A DNA stretch of 64,000 bases, from positions 455,957 to 519,956 of the forward strand of contig CP058896.1 of NCBI GenBank assembly GCA_013415865.1, read 5' to 3'. The stretch comes from Methanomassiliicoccales archaeon. GTDB taxonomy: Archaea; Thermoplasmatota; Thermoplasmata; Methanomassiliicoccales; UBA472. Numbering within the stretch: the first letter of the stretch is position 1; each line of letters starts with the position of its first letter. A model generated the notes under the pieces. It saw nothing but the letters and a program-made list of their open reading frames with translations, was not told the DNA's origin and ran no database searches. A program made the position numbers and the translations under genes. Positions 7,508 through 40,131 of the stretch are shown here, one piece after another.

Positions 7508-8058
7508 TGAGCAGGAGTGCGAGCGTGCAACGGAAGACCAAGGAGACCGAGGTCACAGTAACGGTAGACCTGGACGGGTCGGGAAGGTATACGGTCAGAT
7601 GCGAGGACCAGTTCCTGAGGCATATGCTCGAGACCTTTGCCAGATACTCTTCTTTCGATCTCGAGGTCACGGCCTCGGGGGACAATGTCCATCACCTGGT
7701 GGAGGATGTTGCGATAGTGCTCGGAAGCGCGGTGAAGGAGGCCCTCGGTGATGTCCCGATAGAGAGGATTGCGTCATCCATAGTGCCCATGGACGACGCC
7801 CTGGTGGAGGTGACCCTTGACATCATCGACCGCCCGTACGCTGACATCGATTGTCCAGACGTCATCTATCATCATTTCCTGAGGTCCTTCGCCATGTCGG
7901 CCGGGGTCACTTTACATGTCATTGTCAAACGGGGCTTCGACGAGCACCATATCGTCGAGGCGAGCGTCAAGGCGCTAGGGACCGCGATGCGCAAGGCCAC
8001 GGCTCCGAGGAAGGATGTCCTGAGCACAAAGGAGAGGCCTAAGATAAGGAGGGGCTAG
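7507..8058 (+). CDS. hisB: Imidazoleglycerol-phosphate dehydratase (HisB)
   Basis: Manganese-dependent dehydration of imidazole glycerol phosphate. The 183-residue monofunctional enzyme carries metal-binding histidines in [29 protein letters not shown] and DEHHIVEA. The ATG at 7507 overlaps the hisA stop and has GGAGGA upstream (7494-7499). It is not fused to a phosphatase; histidinol phosphatase is probably the PHP protein three genes downstream. Confidence 0.95.
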
Positions 8059-8060
8059 GG

Positions 8061-8813
8061 CTGCTGACCAAGCGGATCATACCGTGCCTTGACGTCAAGA
8101 ACGGAAAGGTCGTCAAGGGGATAAGGTTCCTGGACCTTCAGGACGTGGGAGACCCTCCGACGATGGCCTCGGAGTATGAGCGCCAAGGGGCGGACGAGAT
8201 CGTCTTCCTTGACATCTCGGCCTCTGCAGAAGGCCGAAAGACCATGCTGAACGTGGTCGAGAGGACGGCGGAGAGCCTGTTCATACCACTGACGGTCGGA
8301 GGAGGCATCAGGAGCAAGGAGGACATGAGGGAGGCTTTGAACGCAGGGGCGGACAAGGTGTCGGTGAACACGGTCGCCGTACAGCATCCTCATGTCATCT
8401 CAGAGTGCGCCAAGGATTTCGGGAGCCAGTGCGTCGTATGCGCAATAGATGCCAAAAGGACCGGGGGGTCTTGGAAGGTCTATACGCATGGTGGACGGAG
8501 GCCCACCGACCTCGATGCGGTGAAGTGGGCCGTCAGGGCGCAGGAGCTCGGGGCGGGCGAGATACTCCTGACCAGCATGGACGCCGACGGCACAAAGAAC
8601 GGTTATGATATAGAGCTCACGGCGGCAGTGGCAGAGGCTGTGACGATCCCCGTCATCGCGTCGGGAGGGTGCGGGACCCTTGAGCACATCTACGAGGTCC
8701 TGACAAAGACCAAGGCCGAGGCCGCCCTTGCCGCCTCGATATTCCATTATGGGGAGCTGAGCGTGGAGGAGTGCAAATCATATCTCAGGGAAAGGGGAGT
8801 GAGGGTCAGATGA
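8061..8813 (+). CDS. hisF: Imidazole glycerol phosphate synthase cyclase subunit (HisF), apparent CTG start
   Basis: The cyclase partner of HisH. The conserved N-terminus with catalytic Asp ([19 protein letters not shown]) is present in frame immediately after hisB, but no ATG, GTG or TTG precedes it: the frame has a stop at 8040, and the first usual start would be a GTG in the residue-27 region or ATG at 8145, deleting the first beta strand. CTG at 8061, with AAGGAGGGG at 8046-8054, restores M-L-T-K-R exactly as in homologs and gives a normal 250 residues. The second catalytic Asp lies in [14 protein letters not shown]. Translation from CTG is inferred. Confidence 0.88.
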
Positions 8814-19760: not shown

Positions 19761-20388
19761 CCTTCGTTACTTCTCTTTCCTTCAATATCCTTTCTGCCAC
19801 TGAGAGGTCCCCCGGCGTGTTCACGTTGACGGCGAAATCGATGCTATCCGTGAACATGTACGCCGCTTCGACATAGCTATCCTTGAGCATCTCCTTCCTT
19901 TCGACCACGCTGACCCCACAGAACGTCGTCTCCCTACCGTCGAGCACGTCGGTATAGGTCACATCGAGACCGACAGACCTGATGGTCGCTGGGTCCAGGG
20001 CGACCGTCAGCGAGGCCTTCCCTGCGCTCAAGAACTCCCTTAACACCGTCTCCACGCTCTTCTTTGTAAGCAATGGCATGTCCACAGGGATTATCACGAC
20101 GATGTCCTCCTGTATGGACGACATGATCTCGTGAAGGTCCTCAACATATCCCCGGCCTGACGTCCTGATCACAATGACCTCTTTCCCTTTCAGATATTGC
20201 TCGGTCCTCGGGGTGGATGTCGAGGTCGAGACGTAGACCTGGGACACCATCGGCGATGATGCCGCATCGATGGCCCGGTCGATCAGTTTCTTTCCAAGGA
20301 CCTCCACCAACGGTTTCTCCATCCCCAGCTGGGATATCCGGGTCCCTCTCCCCCCAGCAGTGATCAGAGCAGCTTTTCCGCAAGCCAT
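19750..20388 (-). CDS. cobY: GTP:adenosylcobinamide-phosphate guanylyltransferase (archaeal CobY)
   Basis: Transfers GMP to adenosylcobinamide phosphate, the archaeal replacement for CobU. The 212-residue MobA-like nucleotidyltransferase shows ALITAGGRGTRISQLGMEKP (residues 7-26) and the metal-binding VIIPVDMPLL near 98. The start overlaps the 3' end of cobS by 25 bp, so translation is probably coupled. It is the last gene of the btuF operon and converges with cobT. Confidence 0.93.
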   Translation of the reverse strand: MACGKAALITAGGRGTRISQLGMEKPLVEVLGKKLIDRAIDAASSPMVSQVYVSTSTSTPRTEQYLKGKEVIVIRTSGRGYVEDLHEIMSSIQEDIVVIIPVDMPLLTKKSVETVLREFLSAGKASLTVALDPATIRSVGLDVTYTDVLDGRETTFCGVSVVERKEMLKDSYVEAAYMFTDSIDFAVNVNTPGDLSVAERILKEREVTKVTF

Positions 20389-21149
20389 AGTGCACCGCTC
20401 AACGCTAATAGGACCATCGGCCTGGCTATCTCGTTCGTCGCACCAAGGATGTCGCCGTTGACGACCCCGAAGTGCTTCATAGCGGTCCTTGCAACGACCG
20501 CTCCTGTGACAAGGGAGGCTATGATCATCATCAGCAGGACCGATGTGAGCTCCGCCAGGTCAACGCGCGCAGGGGCCAGAAGGATGTATGCTGGGACGGT
20601 CGCGACCAGTCCTATCGCCAGAGCCACGGCCACGGTCCCTGAACTGGTATTCTTGACGAATATGCCCCCCAGCCCTTCCCTCGCCTCGCCGAGGGCGGCG
20701 CAGGTGACCATCGACACCTTTATGAGCACCTCAGCGGCAAAAGGTGCCAGGAAATAGAAGCCCCTATCAACGTTTGCCAGGGCCGATATAGAAAGAAGCA
20801 CGAACAGCATGGCATAGGCCAGTCCACCCGCTCCGACATGAGAGTCCTTCATAACGCTGAGCTTGCGCTCCTTGTCCCCGAGGACCATTAGACCGTCCCC
20901 CATATCGCTCAGGCCGTCGAGGTGCAGGAACCTGTTCAGGCCCATGATGACGAAAATGACGATCACCGCAGAGATCAGAGGACCATAGACCTCGGTCAGC
21001 ACGTACATGAGGATACCGCTCAGGAGGCCTAGGAACACCCCCACCAACGTCACAAGATAGAACCTTTTGGCCAGGGACATGACCTCCTCACCCTCGACAT
21101 CCAACGGGACGATGGTGAACATCGAGAAGGCCGCCTTGACCGCCCCTAT
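20364..21149 (-). CDS. cobS: Adenosylcobinamide-GDP ribazoletransferase (CobS), apparent ATA start
   Basis: Membrane enzyme joining AdoCbi-GDP with alpha-ribazole to complete the cobamide. It has several hydrophobic helices and the signature NRFLHLDGLSDMGDG, then KDSHVGAGGLA. CobS proteins begin about 8-10 residues before a segment of the type FSxxTIVP. Here that stretch, GAVKAAFSMFTIVPLD, is in frame upstream of the first ATG (21122), back to an ATA at 21149 that overlaps the cbiS stop as ATAG, with GGAAGGATC upstream. I therefore place the start at ATA 21149 (261 residues); ATG 21122 is the conservative alternative. Confidence 0.85.
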   Translation of the reverse strand: MGAVKAAFSMFTIVPLDVEGEEVMSLAKRFYLVTLVGVFLGLLSGILMYVLTEVYGPLISAVIVIFVIMGLNRFLHLDGLSDMGDGLMVLGDKERKLSVMKDSHVGAGGLAYAMLFVLLSISALANVDRGFYFLAPFAAEVLIKVSMVTCAALGEAREGLGGIFVKNTSSGTVAVALAIGLVATVPAYILLAPARVDLAELTSVLLMMIIASLVTGAVVARTAMKHFGVVNGDILGATNEIARPMVLLALSGALWLAEKLL

Positions 21150-22282
21150 TGTAGAGATCCTTCCACCTCCAGAAGCTCAGAGTATATCATTGACATCACG
21201 CTCCCTATCAGAGAGCCCACTATATCGTCCAGGAACGGACCGAGATCCCCAAGTATGCCTGGTTTCTTCCTGTCGTAACGGATGTACTCGAATACGCCCT
21301 TGGTACCTGTAAGGTACTCGGCAAGACCTATCCCAAGGACCTCGTCGGCGAGAAGATGGACGGGGTCCTGCTTGAACCTGTCTCCATCCAGTCCATGAAG
21401 TTCGTTCCTGTTTCCCTTGTCCTCCAGAAGGATCGCCGCATGGACGAGGGCGTTCACGTTGACATCCTGGCGCAGGACGTTGATCTTATGCATGAACTTC
21501 TGTCTGAGAAGTTCCTCGCTCCAGTTCTCGTTCGGGAAGATCAGCTTCCTGGCCGCATCCCACATCGCGTCGACCGTGATCCCTTGGTCATCCAATAATG
21601 TGACGAAATCTGGAGGTGAGGTCCTGGCATACCATTTAAGGGTCGACTCTTTGACGGCCATCCTTACGGCGCGGGCTAGACATATGCCAGCGTCCGTGGC
21701 GGTGCCGGCGTACTTTTCCCCATCTCCGACCGGACACGTTATGGCCACCGCATCGCTGGTCGTCCCGGTGCCCCGGACGCCACAGTCCATGAGCGCGGCC
21801 GACTTTGCCTCTGTCGCGGTTATTATCGCATTGGTCATCCCTATATCATGCAACGGAGAGCCCATTATCACCATGATGTTGATGGTGTGAGCCCCCCCTC
21901 CCAACTGGGCCTTGATATGGTCTGGGATCAGCTCTCCTGCATATACTGCGTTCTTCACCCCCGCCGTAGCGATCGCCACGACATGAGAGCCTTTGTACTC
22001 CATCTCCACGACCGAAACGACCTTTTCCATGTCAGCTGCGGTCATGAACGTCACTGTGCGCTCCGGCAGGCCCAGCTCCCTGACGGTCCTCATCGCATCC
22101 TCCTCTGGGTCGTCGTTGACATAGTCCAAGGGGACCTGGACCATGGCAATAGTGTCGGTCATGGTGAACCCGCCGTTCAGGATGGTCGTGCTGAGGACGC
22201 GCATCTCATTTGGAAGGCCTACTACCATGACCTTGTAACCGTTCGCCCTCTTGAACTCGACCTTGATGTCCTTTGCTCTCAT
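21146..22282 (-). CDS. cbiS: CbiS: adenosylcobinamide amidohydrolase fused to alpha-ribazole phosphatase
   Basis: A 378-residue fusion. Residues about 1-220 are a CbiZ-type adenosylcobinamide amidohydrolase (TTILNGGFTMTDTIAMVQVP, TAGVKNAVYAGE, GTGTTSDAVAITCPVGDG). Residues about 225-378 match CobZ/PgpA-like alpha-ribazole-phosphate phosphatase (HLLADEVLGIGLAEYL, KPGILGDLGPFLDDIVGSL). This architecture was described for CbiS of Methanopyrus kandleri, which has both activities. One gene thus opens salvaged cobinamide to cobyrate and produces alpha-ribazole for CobS. GGGGGA precedes the ATG; the stop overlaps the cobS start. Confidence 0.93.
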   Translation of the reverse strand: MRAKDIKVEFKRANGYKVMVVGLPNEMRVLSTTILNGGFTMTDTIAMVQVPLDYVNDDPEEDAMRTVRELGLPERTVTFMTAADMEKVVSVVEMEYKGSHVVAIATAGVKNAVYAGELIPDHIKAQLGGGAHTINIMVIMGSPLHDIGMTNAIITATEAKSAALMDCGVRGTGTTSDAVAITCPVGDGEKYAGTATDAGICLARAVRMAVKESTLKWYARTSPPDFVTLLDDQGITVDAMWDAARKLIFPNENWSEELLRQKFMHKINVLRQDVNVNALVHAAILLEDKGNRNELHGLDGDRFKQDPVHLLADEVLGIGLAEYLTGTKGVFEYIRYDRKKPGILGDLGPFLDDIVGSLIGSVMSMIYSELLEVEGSLQ

Positions 22283-32748: not shown

Positions 32749-33210
32749 TTAGATCACCTTTGGAGGGTGCCATCTCAACACTCTCCATCTTCTATATGTC
32801 TTTGATGATTATTATGATTTTGATGAATTTGGTGAAAAAAGGAATAATGAAATCATCTGTTCCAACAACTTGACCGAGTCGACGATATTGCGACTGAAAT
32901 ATCCCTTTCACAATTGCACGGCCTACATGGCGTCCGATGATCCCTCTTATTAAGTGCATGAGGGGGCGTTGTTCTGGATATTCTGATAAAGAGTTCCCAT
33001 AGAACGTCTATGATCTTATCGTTCAATTTCCTAGACCGATGGTCTTTAATTGTTTTCATATTTATCATCAATATCACCAATATCACCATTAGCATATAAT
33101 GAATACTTATATGTTTGCTTGTTCCTGATCGAGAGACCATCATCACTTTCGACCGACCGACGAAAAACGATATGGTCTGCTAGTCATACCCTCGGCTGGA
33201 GGAGAACTTG
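32749..33210. other. AT-rich intergenic region before herA
   Basis: About 460 bp between the divergent RHH gene and herA. It holds a TATA-like GACATATAG near 32802-32810 for the RHH gene, a tandem ATATCACCA repeat (about 33072-33090), a TATA-like TACTTATATG near 33107-33116 for herA, and a leader in which AGACCAT (near 33134) can pair with ATGGTCT (near 33172). The 97-codon - strand frame here has unlikely composition and I do not call it. Confidence 0.4.
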
Positions 33211-36601: not shown

Positions 36602-37720
36602 ATGAAAATAGCGCACATCTCGGACACCCACCTTGGTTTCTCCGCTTACAGGAAGGTCGATGAAGAGACCGGGATGAATCAACGGGAGATCGACATATAT
36701 CGAGCGTTCCAGAGGAGCGTCGATGCGATGATATCAGAAAGGGTGGACCTAGTTCTGCACTCTGGTGACCTCTTCGACACAGTCAGGCCATCGAACAGGG
36801 CCATATCCTTTGCGATGGAGCAGTTCGTAAGATTGACGAAGGCTGGGGCGAAGGTCGTCGTCATAGCGGGGAACCACTCAACGCCCAGGATGCGCGAGAC
36901 CGGAAGCGTGTTCAAGATCTTCGAGCATCTGCCAGGCGTAAGGCCGGTCTATCAGGGGATATATGAGACGGTCGATGTGGGGGAGGTCATCATACATGCC
37001 GTCCCTCATGCTGACAGGGACGAAATGACCAGAGAGCTGGACAAGGTCATTCCTGTCGAAGGTAGGTTGAACGTCCTGATGCTTCACGCAGGGATAGCTG
37101 GCGTAGATGTCCATGGAGGTGTCGAGCACAATGAACAGGTCCTTCCCAGCTCTTATCTCAAAGAGGATATGGACTACATCGCGCTCGGTCATTATCATGA
37201 CATGAAAAAGGTCTCGGACAACGCGTACTATTCTGGATCTACGGAGAGGCTCTCGTTCGCTGAGGTCGGACAACGAAAGGGCTTCATCCTTCTGGACACC
37301 GATGGGATGAGGGTGGAGGAGAGGTGCATGCCTGTCCGACCGATGTTCGACCTTACGCAGATCGATGCCAAGGGGAAGGACGCAAATGAGGTCATGGCTG
37401 AGGCCAGGTCACTTCTGGAAGGGGTCGACCTCAAAGGAGCGTTGGTACGGCTGAACGTGAAGCGGCTCACTGGTGCGCAGTACCGTTCCCTTGACCTCAG
37501 GTCGTTGAGGCAGCTGGCCAATGGCTGCGTGCATTTTGAGCTCAGGTTCGATATGACGACGGAGGATGTCTCGGTCCAGGCCGACGATATCTCCATCACG
37601 GACCTGGAGGGGGAGTTCGCCTCTTACATCGATGGGCGTCCCGTTGAGGGCGTCCCTAAGGAGCGGGTCGCGAGGATGGGCCTTGAATACTTAAGAAGGG
37701 GGCTGGAAGGATCCGGATAA
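36602..37720 (+). CDS. mre11: DNA double-strand break repair nuclease Mre11
   Basis: Manganese-dependent nuclease of the Mre11-Rad50 complex. The 372-residue protein shows all phosphoesterase motifs: HISDTHLG, LHSGDLFD, IAGNHSTPR, LHAGIAG and ALGHYHD. The ATG at 36602 follows GGAAG and leads directly into MKIAHISDTHLG; the in-frame ATG at 36584 would add six residues. The stop TAA overlaps the proposed rad50 ATA start. Confidence 0.94.
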   Translation: MKIAHISDTHLGFSAYRKVDEETGMNQREIDIYRAFQRSVDAMISERVDLVLHSGDLFDTVRPSNRAISFAMEQFVRLTKAGAKVVVIAGNHSTPRMRETGSVFKIFEHLPGVRPVYQGIYETVDVGEVIIHAVPHADRDEMTRELDKVIPVEGRLNVLMLHAGIAGVDVHGGVEHNEQVLPSSYLKEDMDYIALGHYHDMKKVSDNAYYSGSTERLSFAEVGQRKGFILLDTDGMRVEERCMPVRPMFDLTQIDAKGKDANEVMAEARSLLEGVDLKGALVRLNVKRLTGAQYRSLDLRSLRQLANGCVHFELRFDMTTEDVSVQADDISITDLEGEFASYIDGRPVEGVPKERVARMGLEYLRRGLEGSG

Positions 37721-40131
37721 GGTCTGTGGAGCTGACCAATTATCGACGTTTCAACCACGCTTCGGTCGAGCTCGGTGATGGTATCATCGGCATATTGGGC
37801 CAGAACGGTACTGGCAAATCAACCTTCGTCGAGGCTATAGCCTGGGCGATATATGGTAACGAGACCTCCATACTAAGGAACGGGAAGGAGGGTGTGAAAA
37901 GGAGCGGGGCGCTCCCCAGCGAGGAGTGCCAGGTGGTGCTGGAGTTTGACCTGGAGGGGGATGTGTATCGGCTCGTCCGTTCCATGAGGGGCAGAAGCTC
38001 GTTGAGCGATGCGGCCCTCTTGGTGAACGGGAAGGTGCTTGCCAAAGGGGACCGTGCGGTGACCGAGACAATGATCAAACGGCTGGGCATGGACCACAAG
38101 GCCTTCTTCACATCAGTGTTCGCAAGACAGAAAGAGCTCAACTCGCTCAGCGTCCTAAGGCCTGCTGACAGAAAAAAGCTTGTCCTGAGGATGCTAGGGA
38201 TAGATGTCCTGGACGATGTGGTGGAGGAGATCTCGAAGGATGCAGGCTCGCTAAAGGGGACGTTGGAGGCCCTGAGCTCCACCCTAGTAAACCTGAACGG
38301 TAGAGCGAAGGTCGAGGCTCTCAGGGAGGAGGTCGCGGAGATGAGCTCCAAGAAGGTCGCGATCAGGAACGACCTTCTTCACATCGAGGATAGTCTGAAG
38401 GTCCTGGAGGGGGAGGTCGAGGCCGCGAGTAAGCACATGGAGGTGGTAGAGGCAAGGTCTGCGGCCCATAGAGAGCTTGAATCAAAAAGAACGTCGCTTA
38501 CCTCAGACCTGAGGAACCTAGGGTCGAGAAAGGAAAGGGCCCTGAAGGAAATATCGACGTTAGATGAGAAGGCCAGGACGCTGTCGGCCCTGGGGGACGT
38601 CGAGGCCAGGGCGACCGAGCTGGAGAGAAGGAAAGAGGCTTTAGAGGAGGTCAGGGCGAAACATTCGAAGGCCATGGCGTTGGAGGCGTCGATGATGTCC
38701 AGGTCCGCCCAATTACCTGTCCTGAGGGAGGAGCTTAAAAGGCTGGAGGGGGAGGCCCTGGCCATCGGGACCCCAGAGAGGACGGTGGCAGCGGCTGAAG
38801 AGGCCATAGAGGGTTACCGTATGGCCGAATCGGCCCAAAAGGAGAAGGCCAACATGTGCGCCGAGGAGGCAAAGCGGCTTCTAGACGAGATCCGATCGCG
38901 GGAAGAGAGGGCTGAGAAGGTCAGGTCCTTGGGCCCTGAATCTGAATGCCCAACGTGCGAAAGAAAGCTGGGGGACCATCACCATCTGCTCCTTAAGAAA
39001 ATGACCGCGGAGATAGAGGCGATGAGGGCCCAAGTGGCCTCGCTCATGGAGGAGAAGCTGGCCGCAGAGGAGATGGCGAGACGCTCTGCCGAGAGGCGGG
39101 CCAAGAGCGATGAGAGGAGAAGGAATGCTCTGAAGGAGAAAGACCTCCAGGTGAGGCTCCGTGCAGAGGCCGAGGCCAAGCGCTCAATGATATTGTCCAT
39201 CGAGGAAGAGGTCGCGCGGGCGGCAAAGGAAAGGGCGGAGCTGGGGAAGATAGAGTTCGACCAGGTAGAGTATGAATCGGTCAAGGCCGCCCTGATGGAT
39301 ATCAGACCTAAGGTGGATGCCTGCATCAGGCTGAGGACTGAGATCTCAAGGAGGCCATCGATCGAAAGGGAGCTCGAGGAGATGGACCGAAAGATCTCGT
39401 CGATATCGGAGGAGCTTTCTTCAATAACAAAGAAGCTGGAAGAGCTTTCCTTCGACCCTGCGGAGCTCTCGACGAGCAGGGCCGCCTATTCAAGGCTGAG
39501 GGACATTAAGGACAACAAGGCGAAAAAGGCCTCAGATCTACGAGAGGAGCTCTCAAGGACCGATGGGGCCATCGGCTCGGCCTTGGCGAGGATCTATGAG
39601 CTGGAAGCAGATGCAAAAAGGCTTGAGGAGGTCAGGGCCCGGCACATGGAGATGAACGTCCTGCTGAACGTGATGAAGGACTTCCGGACCAATGTCATGG
39701 CAAGGGTCGTACCGACATTGTCCAGGAACGCGTCCGAGCTCTTCAACGACCTCACTGACGGGCGGTTCGGGGGCATCGAGCTGGACGAGGACTATGAGGT
39801 CTTTATCTATGACGGTGGCGAGAAGTACCCGCTCAGCAGGTTCTCAGGGGGGGAATCGGACCTTGCGAACCTCTCGCTGAGGCTAGCGATATCGAGGATG
39901 ATAGCAGAACGGTCAGGAAGGCATGTCGACCTCCTTGTCCTTGATGAGATATTCGGCTCGCAGGACAATATAAGAAAGAGGAACATCCTGGACATGTTGA
40001 ATAAGCTCCAGAGACAGTTCGCTCAGATCTTTGTCATAACCCATATAGAGGATGTCAAGGATGCGGTCGACGACCTGATCGTCGTCAGAGAGGCCGGGGA
40101 CGGATGCAGTCAGATCGGACGGGTGGGATGA
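37717..40131 (+). CDS. rad50: DNA repair ATPase Rad50, apparent ATA start
   Basis: SMC-like partner of Mre11. The roughly 804-residue protein has Walker A GILGQNGTGKST, two long coiled-coil arms, a zinc hook CPTC near residue 411, signature FSGGESDLANLSLRLA near 707 and Walker B LLVLDEIFGSQD near 738. Rad50 proteins begin with a strand of about eight residues before the NFR/NYR motif; here IRSVELTNYRRF is in frame from an ATA at 37717 that overlaps the mre11 stop as ATAA, with GGAAGG six bases upstream. GTG at 37726 is the conventional alternative but shortens the strand and has poor spacing. Confidence 0.93.
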   Translation: MRSVELTNYRRFNHASVELGDGIIGILGQNGTGKSTFVEAIAWAIYGNETSILRNGKEGVKRSGALPSEECQVVLEFDLEGDVYRLVRSMRGRSSLSDAALLVNGKVLAKGDRAVTETMIKRLGMDHKAFFTSVFARQKELNSLSVLRPADRKKLVLRMLGIDVLDDVVEEISKDAGSLKGTLEALSSTLVNLNGRAKVEALREEVAEMSSKKVAIRNDLLHIEDSLKVLEGEVEAASKHMEVVEARSAAHRELESKRTSLTSDLRNLGSRKERALKEISTLDEKARTLSALGDVEARATELERRKEALEEVRAKHSKAMALEASMMSRSAQLPVLREELKRLEGEALAIGTPERTVAAAEEAIEGYRMAESAQKEKANMCAEEAKRLLDEIRSREERAEKVRSLGPESECPTCERKLGDHHHLLLKKMTAEIEAMRAQVASLMEEKLAAEEMARRSAERRAKSDERRRNALKEKDLQVRLRAEAEAKRSMILSIEEEVARAAKERAELGKIEFDQVEYESVKAALMDIRPKVDACIRLRTEISRRPSIERELEEMDRKISSISEELSSITKKLEELSFDPAELSTSRAAYSRLRDIKDNKAKKASDLREELSRTDGAIGSALARIYELEADAKRLEEVRARHMEMNVLLNVMKDFRTNVMARVVPTLSRNASELFNDLTDGRFGGIELDEDYEVFIYDGGEKYPLSRFSGGESDLANLSLRLAISRMIAERSGRHVDLLVLDEIFGSQDNIRKRNILDMLNKLQRQFAQIFVITHIEDVKDAVDDLIVVREAGDGCSQIGRVG

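Follow-up and report, generated by a model that had tools for sequence, protein, structure and literature searches.

Start codons other than ATG, GTG or TTG have been described in bacteria, where infC (ATT in E. coli, ATC in Streptomyces), pcnB (ATT), sigR (GTC) and the S. aureus genes ccpN and citZ (AUA) and cvfC1 (AUU) keep such starts across species, as do the genes considered here (PMC13009471, PMC5472188). The non-canonical starts of S. aureus are served by strong or extended Shine–Dalgarno (SD) sequences, a property shared by the four cases that we describe from one archaeal genome, and in S. aureus reporters non-canonical starts gave 10–30 per cent of the expression obtained from AUG (PMC13009471). 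Archaeal start codons have been described as AUG, GUG and UUG (PMC7531240). Translational coupling at overlapping genes is known in archaea (PMC6728339), and the termination–reinitiation pairs of the ATGA/TGATG type (Huber et al. 2019, PMC6728339) resemble the present locus in that the genes are co-directed and overlapping and the SD lies inside the upstream gene.

The locus is the junction of cbiS and cobS within a window of 64,000 nt (the whole stretch of DNA that was analysed, G000:C1:455957-519956) from a complete 1.82-Mb archaeal genome of the order Methanomassiliicoccales, here called G000. Its features are as follows.

21146-22282, minus strand: cbiS, encoding a CbiZ domain (adenosylcobinamide amidohydrolase) and a PgpA/CobZ-like phosphatase domain (Pfam PF01955, PF04608); 13-nt overlap with cobS.
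21163-21170, minus strand: SD GGAGGTGG of cobS, within the end of cbiS; −14.0 kcal/mol with AUCACCUCCU, percentile 1 among 123 genes of the same genome with conserved starts.
21156-21158, minus strand: proposed cobS start codon ATC; ATC in all three genomes of the genus and ACG (9), ATT (14) or ATA (4) in 27 others; SD 4 nt away.
21147-21149, minus strand: ATA favoured by the original prediction, probably codon 4 of cobS; unconserved across relatives; SD 13 nt away.
21146-21148, minus strand: cbiS stop TAG, read from the sequence; an ordinary stop in a genome with no PylS over the cut-off.
21120-21122, minus strand: ATG, the first standard codon in the cobS frame and an internal Met; unconserved in relatives, with conserved coding sequence upstream.
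20364-21158, minus strand: cobS, cobalamin-5-phosphate synthase, 264 codons if ATC at 21158 is the start; Pfam PF02654, E 1.2e-39, full profile.

On the minus strand the cobS frame reads, from the stop TGA at 21179-21177, GCT TCT GGA GGT GGA AGG ATC TCT ACA ATA GGG GCG GTC AAG GCG GCC TTC TCG and then the ATG at 21122. The original prediction had noted that no ATG, GTG or TTG is available between that in-frame stop and the ATG, and that the ATA at 21149-21147 overlaps the cbiS TAG as ATAG; both statements are exact on re-reading the bases. The product is identified as CobS by Pfam PF02654, with a score of 137.1 bits where the cut-off is 23.2.

To place the start, cobS N-termini were gathered from 110 genomes of the order, and codons were numbered back from the Phe of the motif FTIxP. 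A standard start is absent in 30 genomes (species) belonging to nine genera of families f1, f2 and f5, and in all 30 of these codon −13 is one base from ATG: ATC in 3/3 genomes of the window's own genus, ACG in 9/9 of genera g2 and g7, ATT in 14/14 of family f5, and ATA in 4/4 of g5, g6 and f2. From codon −13 to codon −8 no standard codon is found in 28 of the 30, the exceptions being G133 (GTG at −11) and G014 (GTG at −8). Four f5 genomes have a stop codon directly before the ATT, so that a cobS start further upstream is impossible there. Of the 31 degenerate third positions at the f5 cbiS end only 5 do not vary, and two of these are the very ones that spell ATT-A, the cbiS Leu codon at this site being TTA in 14/14. 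Family f6 has standard cobS starts, family f4 has ATGATG, and two further genomes (G132 and G018) are exceptions in which a standard start accompanies a moved junction. At exactly column −13 no relative has a standard codon, unlike the rad50 and hisF columns treated below.

SD energies were calculated against a 16S end taken to be AUCACCUCCU, an assumed sequence, with 123 genes of the same genome that have conserved standard starts as the reference. On this scale the cobS SD is stronger than about 99 per cent of the reference genes. It stands 4 nt from the ATC, 13 from the ATA and 16 from the ATG at 21122, whose own SD is weak; spacings in this genome are mostly 2–7. Given that the codon −13 column and the spacing and strength of the SD point to the same place, cobS very probably starts at the ATC at 21158-21156, a codon with one mismatch to ATG.

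The original prediction had put the start at the ATA, which shares bases with the cbiS stop (ATAG); ribosomes would then begin cobS by termination–reinitiation. An exact stop–start overlap of this kind is the classical geometry of reinitiation (PMC6728339), and the column of the ATA (−10) holds an ATG, within a cbiS overlap, in f4 and the f6 genera g23, g26 and g29; the ATG of f4 and f6 lies at −10 to −12 and cannot be aligned without gaps to codon −13 of f1, f2 and f5. The codon itself, however, does not hold: it is GTA in G002 of the same genus, GTA or CTA in g7, and GTA, CTA, CTG or TTA in f5, mostly two mismatches from ATG. In all clades with such an overlap it is NTA or CTG because it adjoins the cbiS stop base (NTAG, NTAA or NTGA). 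With an SD 13 nt away as well, the ATA appears an unlikely start, and the ATC at spacing 4 fits better. Since the interval holding the ATC, the ATA and the ATG is short, an additional start at the ATA would escape notice.

The case for the ATA had also leaned on rad50, a second gene of the window for which an ATA start was proposed, and whose junction contains the following.

36602-37720, plus strand: mre11 (Pfam Metallophos), with stop TAA at 37718-37720; 10-nt overlap with the rad50 start.
37696-37703, plus strand: SD AAGGGGGC of rad50; spacing 7, −9.1 kcal/mol.
37711-40131, plus strand: rad50 (SMC_N/AAA_23), proposed start ATC at 37711-37713; in the ortholog column ATC 20, ATG 9 and TTG 1 of 30.

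The mre11–rad50 junction reads GGAAGG ATC CGG ATA AGG, and over the 30 genomes the column of the ATA at 37717 does not behave as a start: the relatives place their ATG (eight genomes of g7, and G001 of the window's own genus) or TTG in the column of the ATC at 37711, not in that of the ATA. The rad50 ATA must therefore be given up as a start, and it offers the cobS ATA no precedent. About 12 of the 20 genomes with ATC have no standard codon nearby; in the window's own rad50 a GTG five codons in is possible, but it would remove the first strand of the protein. The motif GGAAGGATC was said to precede the ATA in both genes, and it is indeed common to cobS and rad50, but it does not merely precede a start, as it consists of the spacer plus the likely start ATC itself. 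In f6, the gut family, Rad50 matches are weak SMC-like ones only, and the mre11–rad50 pair seems absent there and present in f1–f5.

A start codon could be dispensed with altogether if ribosomes shifted to the −1 frame ahead of the cbiS stop and made CobS as a CbiS–CobS fusion, and the frame relation of the two genes is in fact constant (−1) wherever they overlap in f1, f2 and f5. Such constancy is nevertheless the expected remnant of an ancestral ATGA overlap, and when the junctions were read by eye no clade had a slippery heptamer, nor did the clades have any sequence in common where the shift would take place. Where the junction has moved (G132, G018, f4 and f6), cobS moreover has a standard start of its own, and at the near-cognate starts of hisF and of a RACo-like gene the preceding gene has already ended, all of which makes a fusion very improbable. 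Pyrrolysine reading of the cbiS TAG was also considered and rejected, PylS being found over the cut-off in 4/22 genomes of family f1 (G001, G128, G138 and G141) and not in the window's own genome. This patchiness implies that pyrrolysine coding differs among close relatives. Elsewhere in the same genome, a methyltransferase-type corrinoid protein gene (G000:C1:591378-592157, minus strand) is interrupted by a TAG in frame, at a position that is a Glu codon in G001; in a genome with no PylS over the cut-off this may be a nonsense mutation or a site of readthrough.

Less probable again is a true start at the ATG at 21122, the first standard codon, with the conservation upstream of it accidental. 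Many relatives have CTG, CTC, CTA, TTA or TTG in place of the Met, which f5 and most of g7 lack (CTG/CTC/CTA/TTA), and the SD of this ATG is weak and 16 nt distant. The preceding residues GAVKAAFS are identical in two same-genus relatives that also have no standard start, and the codon differences there are almost all at third positions; because the protein is kept while third positions vary, the stretch in front of the ATG is coding. The Pfam CobS profile is matched whole by the open reading frame from 21158, at residues 10–251, and so begins upstream of the Met. The original prediction was right on both counts here, that the conserved CobS N-terminus extends beyond the first ATG and that this ATG is not the start. 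Weakest of all is the proposal that cobS is a pseudogene or that an ATG was lost to a sequencing or assembly error. In one genome a single-base departure from ATG would look the same, but here there are 30 genomes with four codons, each constant in its clade, and cobS is otherwise intact and conserved. Base error or chance cannot account for the missing start, because 30 genomes of the order share it; what the original prediction called a real habit and not an error is upheld in that respect, cobS and rad50 both being without a usable standard start.

A tree of cbiS, some long branches of which (G010, G003) are uncertain, places the non-AUG state of cobS within one group formed by f1, f2 and f5, with f4 adjoining and f6 outside, and needs two reversions to a standard start, both at moved junctions. 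The cobS start has stayed non-AUG while switching among ATA, ATT, ATC and ACG. In g7 the rad50 junction is ATGA with an mre11 stop TGA; elsewhere that TGA is TCA or TCC and mre11 is two codons longer. The ATC(A) of cobS in the window's genus and the ACG(A) of g7 can likewise be read as a former ATGA in which one base of the stop has changed. With ATG at −13, cbiS would have to encode Cys or Trp or else stop at that point, so that once the ATGA was lost there would be no easy return.

There is reason to think that the habit extends to other genes. Besides cobS and rad50, hisF in the window also has no standard start, and its features are the following.

8046-8053, plus strand: SD AAGGAGGG of hisF; spacing 7, −10.5 kcal/mol.
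8061-8813, plus strand: hisF, proposed start CTG at 8061-8063; from the ortholog column; Pfam His_biosynth.

In the hisF open reading frame (8043-8813, plus strand) the first standard codon is residue 34, and the start is sharply set by the motif KRIIPCLDV. It is standard in all but five of the roughly 50 genomes read, a rate biased by the choice of a gene whose copy in the window was unusual. The column is CTG in G000, G002 and G128 and ATA in G008 and G009; the relatives have GTG in G001, ATG in most others, and TTG as well. No near-cognate hisF start was found among the f6 genomes read. In a sample of the genome, 185 genes of one 224-kb stretch compared with G001, near-cognate starts occur in about 2 per cent, that is, in cobS (ATC), rad50 (ATC), hisF (CTG) and the RACo-like gene at G000:587950 (CTG, where G001, G002 and G128 have ATG). 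All four have SD energies in percentiles 1–15 and spacings of 4–7.

Further cases come from one syntenic block in up to 22 genomes, f6 being covered at cobS and hisF only, and were judged by reading columns, since automated calling of consensus starts (27 genes, 22 genomes) was unreliable at gene overlaps. The start of mre11 is CTG in G020, G021, G023 and G025, directly behind a TAG stop in the last of these, and ATA in G022; the start of cbiB is ACG in G022, and in G017 it is CTG; ACG also starts a HisC-like gene in G133 and G017, with GTG two codons later in G017; the gene at 33184 starts with ACG in G020; and an ABC ATPase gene starts with ATT in G002. It is an even call whether these observations reflect a relaxed start rule in the lineage f1–f5, as distinct from the gut-strain family f6, under which a few per cent of genes would start at ATC, ATT, ATA, ACG or CTG with strong SDs compensating, and cobS and rad50 would have been kept across families as low-yield settings, possibly through a lineage-specific change of the initiation apparatus. 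Loss of the fidelity factor aIF1 was considered as a cause and rejected, the gene being present in 19/22 genomes and the window's own copy having an intact RYGK loop. A simple cause of the relaxed start selection was not found, aIF1 being present and intact in appearance.

Taken as a whole, the cobS junction is best explained, with good though not complete confidence, by weak initiation at the ATC, driven by the strong SD in the end of cbiS and coupled to cbiS. The near-perfect SD in the last cbiS codons, 4 nt upstream, would position the 30S subunit and so set the initiator Met-tRNA over the one-mismatch ATC, where initiation would work but weakly. Because the site lies inside translated cbiS, it is probably fed by ribosomes finishing that gene, and both initiation at the ATC and its coupling to cbiS are what the layout of the junction leads us to infer. 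The likely effect would be a low, fixed yield of CobS relative to CbiS, which would be made first. The same arrangement of a strong SD and a one-mismatch start, mostly at operon junctions, may serve rad50 (ATC), hisF and the RACo-like gene (both CTG), and in relatives mre11, cbiB and others.

The C-terminal PgpA/CobZ-family domain of cbiS is of an archaeal phosphatase type and, by the established role of CbiS/CobZ, the phosphatase of the next step. In E. coli an excess of CobS is lethal and dissipates the proton motive force, and the phosphatase CobC relieves the effect (PMC8749415). A low dosage of CobS may perhaps be the benefit of the weak start, a suggestion that we hold somewhat short of even confidence. 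A neutral alternative is that the weak start persists as a by-product of the overlap rather than through selection for low dosage, and both may act.

A non-AUG start kept in 30 species over four near-cognate codons amounts to a natural experiment on why a weak start should be kept, and for cobS a hypothesis is at hand, in that too much CobS is lethal in E. coli and the gene is here tied to an upstream phosphatase gene. It also raises the question of how a normal-looking aIF1 lets near-cognate codons through. To our knowledge gene finders generally accept ATG, GTG and TTG starts only, and the N-termini of such genes are likely to be truncated or misplaced in annotations of the lineage. In one relative (G134:C188) cobS is preceded by 376 codons without a stop in the −1 frame of cbiS, and gene callers could be lured into a false long cobS. 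We found no report in the open-licence literature of near-cognate starts in Methanomassiliicoccales, or of such starts as a habit in any archaeon.

The bacterial cases are isolated genes, some of them under IF3, whereas the present ones belong to an archaeon with aIF1 in place of the bacterial IF3; and unlike the bacterial starts they lie mostly at operon junctions, switch among ATC, ATT, ATA and ACG from clade to clade, and affect many genes within a single lineage. In the pairs of Huber et al. a standard start codon shares bases with the stop, whereas here the start is near-cognate and the genes overlap by 13 nt (cobS) or 10 nt (rad50). Sharing of bases between start and stop does not occur at the cobS junction of the window, where the first base of the ATC lies 10 nt upstream of the cbiS TAG; it would occur with the rejected ATA, and does so in g5, g6 and f2 (ATAG). 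A further counterpart is found within the order itself, in the cbiS–cobS junctions of f4 (G010) and of the f6 genera g23, g26 and g29, which have the same overlapping pair but have kept an ATG at −10 to −12.
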